Below are positions 39,983-57,093 of a stretch of 64,000 nt of DNA, in pieces; within the stretch, counting starts at the first letter, position 1; every line of letters starts with the position of its first letter. The translations under genes and the position numbers were made by a program. Under the pieces are notes generated by a model, which saw only the letters and a list, made by a program, of their open reading frames with translations, did no database searches and was not told the DNA's origin. The DNA comes from Gemmatimonadota bacterium (GTDB lineage: Bacteria > Gemmatimonadota > Gemmatimonadetes > Longimicrobiales > Gaopeijiaceae): positions 62,001 through 126,000 of the forward strand of contig JAJDXM010000009.1 in the NCBI GenBank assembly GCA_022823225.1, written 5' to 3'.

Positions 39983-40465
39983 TCAGCCTGCCGACCGCAC
40001 CGCGATCCCCACCACCTCGAATCGGGCCCCGAACAGCAGCGTCCCCGACCCCAGGAATGCCCTCGCCGGGTACTCCCTGGTGAAGTAGGTACGGTATACG
40101 CTGTTGAAGGCGTTGTAGTCCCCCACATCGGAAGCGTACACCTGCACGCTGACGAGATCGTCCATCGTCAGCCCCGCGCTTTCGAGGGTGGCCTTGACGC
40201 CATCGAGAACGTTGGTCGCCTCCTGCTCGGCGGTTTCCGGAACCTGGCCGCCCTCCAGCCCGAGCATTCCGGAGATATAGAGGGTGTTTCCGGCCCATAC
40301 GGCACCGCTGAAGGGCAGCACGTTGTCGCCATCGGCCGGCGAACGCGCGCCGACGTGCTCGACGGTCGTCTGCGCTTCCTCCATGTTGTCTGTGGCGGCG
40401 TCCTCGGCCTCGCATGCAACGAGCAGGGCGAAGAGCGGGAGGATGAGCAGTGCGGATCGTTTCAT
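39983..40465 (-). CDS. RidA (YjgF/YER057c) family lipoprotein
   Basis: The 160-residue product has a lipoprotein signal (LFALLVACEAE, Cys at about 18) and a full RidA domain (about 45-158): LPFSGAVWAGNTLYISGMLG, EQEATNVLDGVKATLESAGL and FGARFEVVGIAVR, although the usual catalytic Arg segment near the end is altered. RidA proteins hydrolyse reactive enamines and imines released by PLP enzymes, normally in the cytosol. Here it is sent to the envelope, beside the gene for a Tat-exported PLP enzyme. GGAG seven bases before ATG 40465 fixes the start. Confidence 0.85.
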   Translation of the reverse strand: MKRSALLILPLFALLVACEAEDAATDNMEEAQTTVEHVGARSPADGDNVLPFSGAVWAGNTLYISGMLGLEGGQVPETAEQEATNVLDGVKATLESAGLTMDDLVSVQVYASDVGDYNAFNSVYRTYFTREYPARAFLGSGTLLFGARFEVVGIAVRSAG

Positions 40466-40665
40466 CGGACAACTCCGGGCTACTGGTGATGGCATTTGAC
40501 TCCAATGTACTTAGCCCTGTCCGCAGACTCGGGGCAACCCGGCCGCTGCCGTGCCTCGCCTGTGGCTGGCGGAACTCCTGTTGGGGCTGCCATGTATCTG
40601 TACACACGGTCAATGGGACGTGGGGAGTGGAAGGGTCACGTACAACCTGCACCAGGGAACGACCA

Positions 40666-41874
40666 ATGAGACTCATCCCCCTTCCGGGCGTCCTGCTCGC
40701 GCTTCTTGCTTCGGCCGCCTGCGGTGATCCCGATGCCGCGAGCGCCCCGGTTGGCGAGGTGACCGACTCGGCGGGAATCCCGATCGTTACCAGCGCCGCC
40801 GCCGACCGGATCCACGCACGGGTTGCGGACGCTCCATCCCTCTCGATCGGCGAGTTGGAGGGACCCGACGCGCTGTTGTTCAACCGAATCGAGACGGTTG
40901 CGCGCGATCGCGAAGACAACGTGATCGTGGCGGACGGCGGCTCGGACGAGATACGGGTCTTCGACTCGGGCGGGAACCACATCCTGACCCTGGGAGGCAG
41001 TGGCGATGGTCCTGGTGAATTCCGGGCGCTCCGCGGCGCGTGGCCGCTGGAAGATGGTACCACCGCCGCCTTCGACTCCCGTCTCGACCGCATCTCCCGC
41101 TTCGGAGCCATTGGCGAGGTCGCAGGAGCGACGGCCCTGCGCAAGGAGGGTTTCGGGCTCGTCACTTCGCTGGGGCCCGTAGGCTCGGCGTCCCTGCTCC
41201 TGGAGGTCGAGGAGGTGCCCTTCACGATGTCCGAGGAACCGGTACGCGCCTCGGTCAGCCTTCTTCGACATGCTGTCGACGGATCCGGGGTCGACACGGT
41301 CGCCCAGCTGGAGGGGGGCGCATACACCAACGTCACCAGAACCATGGGCGAGAACGTCATGGTCGAGCTGATCGCGATTCCCTTCTCGTCCGGCGCCGCC
41401 GCTGCCGCATCCCGCGACCGGATCGCAATCACCCCGGGCGACGCGTACGAGGTGCGCTTTTTGGACCCCGCAGGCGCGCTCAGCCACGTCGCGCGCCTCG
41501 CCGAGAGCCCGCGCGAGTGGACCGACGAGGATCTCGCCGCATACGCCCAGGGATCGACGCGCGCCGAACTGGATGAAGCGGGACTTCGCGACCTCGTCGA
41601 ATCCTACGAGGGGCTGCCCATCCCGCCCGCCCTGCCCGGATACGTGGAGCTCAAGTTCGCCGACACGGGAGAACTCTGGGCACGTCGTTATGGCTTGCCG
41701 GGCGCGCCAATGGCTCGCTGGGACGTCTTCGACCGCGACGGCCACCACCTTGGCCACGTGGAGGTTCCGGCCCGGTTCACCGTCAAGGAGCTCAGCCGTG
41801 GCCAGATCCTGGGCGTGGCGCGGGACGATCTTGACATTGAGCGCGTACACGCGAGGGATCTGATTGGGCCCTGA
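40666..41874 (+). CDS. Six-bladed beta-propeller lipoprotein, copy 1
   Basis: The 402-residue product has a lipoprotein signal (LASAACGDPD, Cys at about residue 19). It then has propeller repeats such as DGGSDEIRVFDSGGNHILTLGGSGDGPGEF, quoted here only by its GDGPGEF core at about residue 118, the mark of the 6-bladed NHL-like family common in Gemmatimonadota and Bacteroidota. The function of the family is unknown. An almost equally long paralog follows 28 bp downstream. The ATG at 40666 has AGGGA upstream. Confidence 0.82.
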   Translation: MRLIPLPGVLLALLASAACGDPDAASAPVGEVTDSAGIPIVTSAAADRIHARVADAPSLSIGELEGPDALLFNRIETVARDREDNVIVADGGSDEIRVFDSGGNHILTLGGSGDGPGEFRALRGAWPLEDGTTAAFDSRLDRISRFGAIGEVAGATALRKEGFGLVTSLGPVGSASLLLEVEEVPFTMSEEPVRASVSLLRHAVDGSGVDTVAQLEGGAYTNVTRTMGENVMVELIAIPFSSGAAAAASRDRIAITPGDAYEVRFLDPAGALSHVARLAESPREWTDEDLAAYAQGSTRAELDEAGLRDLVESYEGLPIPPALPGYVELKFADTGELWARRYGLPGAPMARWDVFDRDGHHLGHVEVPARFTVKELSRGQILGVARDDLDIERVHARDLIGP

Positions 41875-41902
41875 AACAACTGCACCGGCGGAGAATGGAG
41901 TC

Positions 41903-43177
41903 ATGAAACGGATCGCAATCCCGCAGGGACGATTTCTGTTCGCAGCGATGACGCTGCCGCTTGCAGCCTGCCGCGAATCGGGTACGATCCCTCAGCCGAC
42001 CGCGAGTGTCACGGACTCGGCCGGCGTGAGGGTCGTCACCAGCGACCCCGGCGATGTGGTCTACGCCGAACTGGCCGAAGCGCCGGCCCTTTCGGTCGGT
42101 CTGCTCGACGGCCCGCCGGAATTCCTCTTCGGAAGGATCGCAACGGCGGCGCGGGACGAGGACGGCAACCTTGTCGTTGCCGATGGACAGGCCAACGAGA
42201 TCCGCATCTTCGATCCCCGGGGGGAGCACCTGCAGACACTCGGAGGCGAGGGGGAGGGTCCGGGGGAGTTCGAGCGGCTGAGCGGCGCGTGGCCGGTGGC
42301 CGGAGGGGGCATCGTCGCGATTGACAGCAACCTTGAGCGCATCACGCGCTTCGATCCGGACGGCGCGACGGAGGGAACGGCGACGTTCGCGGGCCAGCTG
42401 ATGGATGAGGCCAGCTTCACCGACATCGATGTGGTCGGGCTGGGTGGCCCCACCACCGTGCTGAGCAAGGCAACGCTGACGCACGCGCCGTCGCTTGCGT
42501 CCGGGAGCGGAACGATCGAGACGGTGATGGAGGAGATGTTCAGTGGAGAAGCTCCGATCTCGTATGTGCGTCACCGGTTCGACGGCACACTGGTCGACAG
42601 CCTGGCACCGGGCAGGGACGCGGCCACCTCGCTCTCGATGTCGGGCAGCGGCAGAGGCTGGGAAATGAGCCTCAGGGCGGTCCCCTTTTCGCCGGAGTCG
42701 GCGGCGACGGGTTCGGCGCACGGCGTCGTTGTGACTGGAGGGGTCCAATACGAGATCGGCGTGTTCGACCCGGAGGGCGCCCTGCGCATGCGCGCGCGTC
42801 TCACCGAGGCGCCGCCGGCAGTCACCGGTGACCACCTGCGCGCCTACGCGACAAGTTCAGGGACCAGCGAGCGCGACGAGTCGGAGATCCGGGCATCCAT
42901 GGAGCAATACCGCGAGATGCCCTTGCCCGAATCGCTGCCGGGGTACACGGATGTGGTGATCGCTGACACGGGCGAAATATGGGTCCAGCGCTACGCCATG
43001 TGGGGCGCGGCGATGGTCCATTGGGACGTGTTCGCGGCCGACGGGGGCTATCTCGGTCGGGTGGAGGTCCTCGGGTCGTTCCGGATCGAGGAGGTCGGCC
43101 GCGGTCAGGTCCTGGGCATCGCAACGGACGATCTCGGCGTCGAGCGCGCACAGCTTCGCGAACTTACCTTCAGGTAG
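41903..43177 (+). CDS. Six-bladed beta-propeller lipoprotein, copy 2
   Basis: The 424-residue product is a paralog of the preceding gene: lipobox LPLAACRES (Cys at about 23), DSAGVRVVTS, the propeller core GEGPGEFERL and a matching C-terminus (LGRVEV..., GRGQVLGIATDDLGVERA). The two genes run in the same direction and both end in a DDLxxER motif, a tandem duplication that has since diverged. GGAG lies three bases before the ATG. A third related fragment is at the right edge of the window. Confidence 0.82.
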   Translation: MKRIAIPQGRFLFAAMTLPLAACRESGTIPQPTASVTDSAGVRVVTSDPGDVVYAELAEAPALSVGLLDGPPEFLFGRIATAARDEDGNLVVADGQANEIRIFDPRGEHLQTLGGEGEGPGEFERLSGAWPVAGGGIVAIDSNLERITRFDPDGATEGTATFAGQLMDEASFTDIDVVGLGGPTTVLSKATLTHAPSLASGSGTIETVMEEMFSGEAPISYVRHRFDGTLVDSLAPGRDAATSLSMSGSGRGWEMSLRAVPFSPESAATGSAHGVVVTGGVQYEIGVFDPEGALRMRARLTEAPPAVTGDHLRAYATSSGTSERDESEIRASMEQYREMPLPESLPGYTDVVIADTGEIWVQRYAMWGAAMVHWDVFAADGGYLGRVEVLGSFRIEEVGRGQVLGIATDDLGVERAQLRELTFR

Positions 43178-43241
43178 CGCAAATGGTGCGCCGCACCCAC
43201 CGCGCGCCGAGCCGCCATCCATCCCCAAAGGATCTGCCCCA

Positions 43242-43607
43242 ATGACCCCGAGCCTCGACTGGCGCTACCACCGCCCCGGCTGAACAGGTTGCAAACGCAC
43301 GCAGGAGTTTCTTGCGCAGAACGGAATCGAGCCCGCGGAGACCCGCAGCGCGGCCAAACAGCCGGTCGACGCCGCCGAGGCAGTCACACTGCTCGAGGGA
43401 ATGACCGAGCTTCGGGTCGCTAAGGGGAAGAAGGTCGTGGAGGTGGACCTCTCGACCGCGGATCGCCCCCCGAATGAGGATCTCGTCAAGCTCATGGTCA
43501 GCCGCTGGGGCAAGCTCCGCGCACCCACGATGAAGGTCGGCACCACCCTCGTGGTCGGCTTCAACCGGGACATGCTCGCGGCGGTCTTCGGCACGGACGC
43601 CAGATGA
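43242..43607 (+). CDS. ArsC/Spx-like thioredoxin-fold protein with in-frame UGA: candidate selenoprotein
   Basis: The frame opens MTPSLDWRYHRPG, meets TGA at 43281-43283, and continues TGCKRTQEFLAQNGIEP to a TGA at 43605, 121 residues if the first UGA is read as selenocysteine (position 14). The context YHRPG-U-TG-C-KRTQEFL matches the CxxC of ArsC/Spx-type proteins (YxxPxCxxC+), with U at the first Cys. The rest has the cis-Pro LRAPTMKVGTTLVVGF of the thioredoxin fold. AAGGA nine bases before the ATG marks a real start. A hairpin with a GUU loop lies 23 nt after the UGA. A Cys-to-stop mutation is the alternative; selA/B/C are not in the window. Confidence 0.6.
43300..43316 (+). promoter_or_regulatory. 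Candidate bacterial SECIS hairpin
   Basis: CGCAGGA (43300-43306) pairs with TCTTGCG (43310-43316) over 7 bp (one G-U pair), leaving the apical loop GTT. The loop is 23 nt after the UGA at 43281-43283. The bacterial SECIS rule asks for a small apical loop with G in its first two positions at about 16-37 nt after UGA; this meets it. The pairing is seen by eye only. Confidence 0.55.
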
Positions 43608-56487: not shown

Positions 56488-57093
56488 ATGAAGGATGACT
56501 GCTTCCCCGACGAATTCTATCCTGCTTTGACCCGGCTTCCCATTGTAGGCGTGATGGGGTCGGGCGTCCGGTCCCACGAGGAGTTGGCCGAACCGCTGGG
56601 CCGGCGGCTGGCGCGACTGGGCGTGCACCTGCTGACCGGGGGCGGGCGCGGGGTGATGGAGTCCGTGTCCCGGGCGTTTGCGTCGGTGGAGGATCGGGCG
56701 GGGCTGGTGATCGGCGTTCTGCCGCTGCACGGCGCCGATGCGGGAGAAGAGGCCGACCCCGGGTACCCGAACCGGTGGGTCGAGATCGTGGTGAGCACCC
56801 ACCTGGGAAGGGAGGGAGCGAGCCCGGACTCCCGGAATCACGTCAACGTGCTCACTTCGGATGTCGTCGTGGCACTTCCGGGCAGCGCCGGCACGGCGTA
56901 GGAGGTGGCGCTGTCGGTGCGCTACCGGCGCCCCGTCGTCCTCTTCGGCGATCTGGAGCGCGCCCGAGACCTGCCCCCCGAGGTCGCGACGGCGAAAACG
57001 GTGGACGAAGCCGTCGCGTTCGTGCAGCGGCACCTGGCGCGGAGTGCGGCGGCCGCCGAGCGCGGCGGGGGCTTCGGCCCCGCGCCAGAATGA
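56488..57093 (+). pseudogene. LOG-family (lysine-decarboxylase-like) gene interrupted by an amber codon
   Basis: The reading runs IVGVMGSGVRSHEELAEPLG and LTGGGRGVMESVSRAFA, typical of the LOG family (TIGR00725 type), up to LPGSAGTA. A TAG at 56899-56901 falls inside the PGGxGTxxE motif where one expects Ser or another residue before EVALS. The frame then continues as EVALSVRYRRPVVLFG to a TGA at 57093. One base change (for example TCG to TAG) would explain it. Without read-through the protein is 137 residues and lacks its C-terminal part. GGAG before ATG 56488 suggests that it was once translated. It overlaps the next gene by ATGA. Confidence 0.8.

Follow-up and report, generated by a model that had tools for sequence, protein, structure and literature searches.

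Small selenoproteins of the ArsC family have a published history. ArsC-like selenoproteins were reported in 2006 (PMC1794560), and UxxC ArsC forms, in which U is selenocysteine (Sec), in 2008, in the Global Ocean Sampling (GOS) data (Zhang and Gladyshev, PMC2398784); the "Arsenate reductase 2" of that survey (cd03032) is likewise an Spx-type ArsC selenoprotein with a UxxC motif, found in marine samples. A 2026 review (PMC13188914) describes the NCBIfam family NF041106 as "Arsenate reductase-like protein", a UxxC selenoprotein. The gene that is the subject of this analysis lies in a 64-kb stretch of Gemmatimonadota DNA (the window) and is an additional member of this catalogued family: its product matches NF041106 (ArsC_rel_Se_1, "ArsC family (seleno)protein") at 113.8 bits against a cut-off of 85, over residues 5-111, and resembles it in full-length match, in UxxC motif and in size, with no substantive difference; what sets it apart is its source, the Gemmatimonadota. 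The original prediction had put forward a selenoprotein candidate here and implied that it was novel: each of its suggested checks that could be carried out spoke for the candidate, which is almost certainly a real selenoprotein gene, while the novelty has not survived, since NF041106 and the reports of 2006, 2008 and 2026 make the family a known one.

Coordinates are collected in the table. Read from its ATG, the frame meets TGA at codon 14, then runs through 107 sense codons to a terminal TGA (43605-43607), giving MTPSLDWRYHRPG-U-TGCKRTQEFL...; translation thus bears out the proposal of an in-frame TGA in the UxxC motif of a small thioredoxin-fold protein, with normal coding sequence beyond it and a ribosome site before the ATG. 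Comparison with 18 relatives in the genus gives dN/dS of 0.13-0.35 3' of the TGA, with most changes at third positions; coding selection therefore persists beyond the TGA. The pattern by itself is uncommon but not decisive, since three places in the window (both strands) combine a UxxC/CxxU TGA with an open frame and a suitable hairpin (at least 6 bp, G early in the loop, right distance from the TGA); homologs were sought for the TGA at 43281 alone, and were found.

Features of the locus (positions in the 64-kb window)
Feature	Position	Strand	Basis and remarks
Gene for the ArsC/Spx-like selenoprotein (121 residues; Sec is residue 14)	43242..43607	+	Translation; NF041106, 113.8 bits; TGA in 70/70 homologs
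AAAGGA, Shine-Dalgarno-like site	43227..43232	+	9 nt 5' of ATG; from sequence
TGA codon, almost certainly read as selenocysteine (U14)	43281..43283	+	Translation; codon conservation in homologs
TGC codon, resolving cysteine C17 of UxxC	43290..43292	+	Retained in nearly all homologs
Bacterial SECIS hairpin, 7-bp stem, GUU loop (43307-43309)	43300..43316	+	Covariation, folding, biased codons

What, more precisely, is the encoded protein? AlphaFold returns a confident thioredoxin-type fold (pLDDT 93.7) whose first helix opens with U14 (Cys in the model). Ranked by sequence, profile and fold, the best-matching solved structures are Spx without exception, aligned across the whole domain; ArsC-related proteins and glutaredoxins come next. 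A true arsenate reductase is an unlikely reading, although reviews name the family "arsenate reductase-like", ArsC folds are among the Foldseek matches and there is a sub-threshold match to Pfam ArsC (19.8 bits, cut-off 24). Fold and general layout are indeed shared with glutaredoxin-coupled ArsC, but the arsC equivalog model (TIGR00014) gives 14.3 bits against a cut-off of 106, and Spx is the better match; because of that score the label "arsenate reductase" is unsupported beyond the fold. ArsC uses a single N-terminal catalytic Cys, whereas this protein has UxxC. An Arg of ArsC binds arsenate; at the matching position, before the invariant Pro, the selenoprotein has Ala (LRAP) and Spx has Arg (RRP). 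No ars genes are found among the immediate neighbors in the window, which include genes for 6-bladed beta-propeller proteins and S9 peptidase. (The beta-propeller genes are two in tandem, with weak DUF5128 matches, at 40450-43177 on the + strand, just 5' of the selenoprotein gene.) Other genes flank it elsewhere: across 54 named loci no conserved neighborhood was found, the neighbors differing between genera, so that neighborhood supplies no functional link.

Slightly less likely still is the reading, favored by the structural matches, of an Spx-like protein that senses redox state as a partner of RNA polymerase. Spx of Bacillus subtilis (PDB 1z3e, 6ghb) has the same fold, and its CxxC aligns with UxxC, Sec falling on the first Cys, as had been proposed. 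Spx differs, however, in having Cys for Sec, RRP for LRAP and a longer C-terminus, the tail of which is absent here; the selenoprotein falls well short of the Spx models (25 bits where the cut-off is 123; for the Spx/MgsR regulator model TIGR01617, 31.4 bits against 75), and Sec is typical of catalytic rather than sensory sites. The fuller proposal, an RNA polymerase-binding regulator with Sec as its sensing residue, strictly Sec throughout Gemmatimonadota, is a long shot.

The evidence that the TGA is a codon for selenocysteine begins with its conservation. Of the 121 genomes in the window's GTDB family, 69 have homologs, 70 copies in all, and each copy has TGA at the Sec position; TGC occurs in none of the close relatives. 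Sampling 395 genomes from the phylum gave matches in 83; 82 of these genomes have clear members, and every such match contains one TGA. The match in the remaining genome (G277) is another protein, with Cys, to which NF041106 gives 23.8 bits and the ArsC/Spx models more. No Cys ortholog was found in these 395 Gemmatimonadota genomes, in contrast to the 238 Cys homologs counted for the GOS "Arsenate reductase 2". A scan across phyla with a pattern 3' of the Sec codon, which reached close relatives only, returned TGA forms alone. Among Gemmatimonadota, to judge from these genomes, loss of the gene rather than replacement by Cys seems to be the rule. Conservation of the TGA across relatives means that it is neither an error nor a private mutation.

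Most of the named relatives are MAGs from Gemmatimonadota (Longimicrobiales, BD2-11); a few are labelled Acidobacteria, Planctomycetota or Gammaproteobacteria, and all of these have TGA as well. Four records titled Gammaproteobacteria that carry the gene (L101, L105, L110, L113) match contigs of the window's GTDB family and were probably mislabelled by their submitters. A single homolog (L014, G025:C33:1382-1741) has Tyr in place of the resolving Cys (UTGY), leaving Sec alone; if this is not an error, it suggests that Sec is the essential residue.

The second line of evidence is the hairpin 3' of the TGA, CGCAGGA-GUU-UCUUGCG, whose coordinates had been predicted exactly and whose loop G lies 23 nt from the TGA. 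The published bSECIS rule (PMC13188914) asks for a loop of 3-9 nt, a stem of 4-16 bp, a distance of 16-37 nt from the UGA, G in the first two loop positions and an MFE of at most -7.5. With its 3-nt GUU loop, 7 bp and 23 nt the hairpin falls within this rule, passing the energy limit with its flanks only: the 17-mer folds at -7.1 kcal/mol alone and at -8.2 once three to six bases on its flanks are included. Shuffles of the 17-mer fold as well in 3 of 200 cases, but the overall 50-nt fold energy is no better than that of shuffles; the case for a SECIS rests on covariation, not on energy. An Rfam scan of the selenoprotein region returned nothing relevant; the SECIS pattern, run genome-wide, matches the selenoprotein gene only.

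Across 69 distinct sequences the hairpin cells form standard pairs in 98.6% of cases, and 30 cells are doubly changed (compensatory), a level that none of 500 shuffles reaches on either count, though relatedness of the sequences inflates such shuffle tests; for that reason the variety of the stem changes carries more weight than the shuffle count. Slid controls drop to 32-69% paired cells, none close to the real register. The compensatory changes turn pair 2 from G-C to U-A, and pairs 4 and 7 from A-U to G-C; pair 5 goes from A-U to G-U. Because the SECIS sits within coding sequence, changes of the protein are tied to synonymous changes on the other side of the stem: 1) Thr..Ala (ACG..GCG) against Thr..Glu (ACT..GAG); 2) Gln..Leu (CAA..CTT) against Arg..Leu (CGA..CTC); 3) Glu..Phe (GAG..TTT) against Gly..Phe (GGG..TTC). 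All 72 distinct sequences have GUU as the loop triplet. Codon choice is skewed: Leu is CTT in 55 of 67 cases at the hairpin as against 67 of 899 elsewhere in these genes, and Phe is TTT in 65 of 67 as against 12 of 99. The hairpin forces codons otherwise rare in the gene and is selected as RNA. Another family has the hairpin in a shifted register, CCCAGG-AGUU-CCUGGG. Homologs from a single genus (L176-L181), which belongs to a different family within the class, keep the UGA and lack the GAGUUUC hairpin; they may rely on a SECIS of another form.

Thirdly, the genome encodes what is needed to decode such a codon. It has a tRNA-Sec (79.6 bits against an Rfam cut-off of 47; anticodon TCA by ARAGORN), selA (470 bits), selB (307 bits) and selD (381 bits; L082, G000:C52:13402-14319), the full set expected for SelB/SECIS-dependent bacterial selenoproteins. 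SelD proteins carry Cys or Sec in their UGCK motif, and the selD of this genome has its own in-frame TGA there (HGAGUGCKLGQ); since the TGA falls where SelD carries Cys or Sec, the genome probably has in selD a second gene for a selenoprotein. (Two strong hairpins follow the TGA of selD, the second with a GUG loop.) Within the GTDB family the selenoprotein gene and selB tend to occur together: 65 genomes have both, 4 the gene without selB, 27 selB alone and 25 neither (65/4 against 27/25, Fisher p 6e-8, a figure weakened by genome incompleteness and relatedness, its direction unaffected). The four genomes with the gene and no selB over the cut-off (G040, G047, G071, G101) are all drafts, split into 100 to 830 contigs.

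UGA stops inefficiently in some bacteria, and one could suppose that this UGA is translated by readthrough into some other amino acid (e.g., Trp) or that UGA is generally recoded; this is very improbable, for UGA is also the ordinary stop of the selenoprotein gene and of many homologs, the genome holds the full Sec machinery, and the codon stands at the first Cys of the Spx CxxC. Least probable of all, and refuted by a TGA conserved over many separately assembled genomes, is the reading that the TGA is an ordinary nonsense mutation, or an error of sequencing, in an ArsC/Spx gene that codes for Cys (a pseudogene): broken genes do exist nearby (a LOG-family ORF), but this TGA is common to all relatives in several genera and families, TGC is found in none of them, and 3' of it the protein is under selection and the hairpin covaries. 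The LOG-family ORF (56488-56901, + strand) has TAG at 56899-56901, in its PGGxGTxxE motif region (LPGSAGTA*EV); as had been noted at the outset, the ORF carries a plain nonsense codon, which may also be an error and does not stand for selenocysteine.

We therefore regard a genuine selenoprotein gene, its UGA decoded as Sec and its product likely a selenol-thiol redox enzyme, as very close to certain: machinery, TGA conservation, covariation and NF041106 membership uphold the selenocysteine-containing redox protein that was proposed. On the comparative record the cell almost certainly reads the UGA at 43281 as selenocysteine. Going beyond the observed codon, covarying hairpin, machinery, coding constraint past the UGA and family membership, we infer Sec insertion in the organism, the chemistry of the enzyme and any substrate as follows. 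SelB with Sec-tRNA(Sec) would recognize the hairpin, which starts 16 nt past the UGA, and selenocysteine would be inserted at residue 14 in place of termination. The resulting protein would consist of one thioredoxin-fold domain and belong to the Spx/ArsC branch; its Sec would stand at the N-terminus of the first helix, three residues before the resolving Cys. Attack of the selenolate on an oxidized or disulfide substrate would give an intermediate that Cys17 resolves by forming a Se-S bond, which a cellular thiol would then reduce again. Most likely the product is a cytosolic selenol-thiol oxidoreductase.

A gene caller unaware of Sec would shorten this gene at the UGA or start it downstream. 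The literature searched yielded no description of selenoproteins of Gemmatimonadota. The Gln/Arg, Ala/Glu and Glu/Gly changes linked to synonymous changes across the RNA stem make a textbook case of an RNA element within coding sequence. New here are the detailed record of SECIS covariation and the strict retention of Sec in Gemmatimonadota, a phylum (Longimicrobiales/BD2-11) to which the analysis adds a well-documented selenoprotein.
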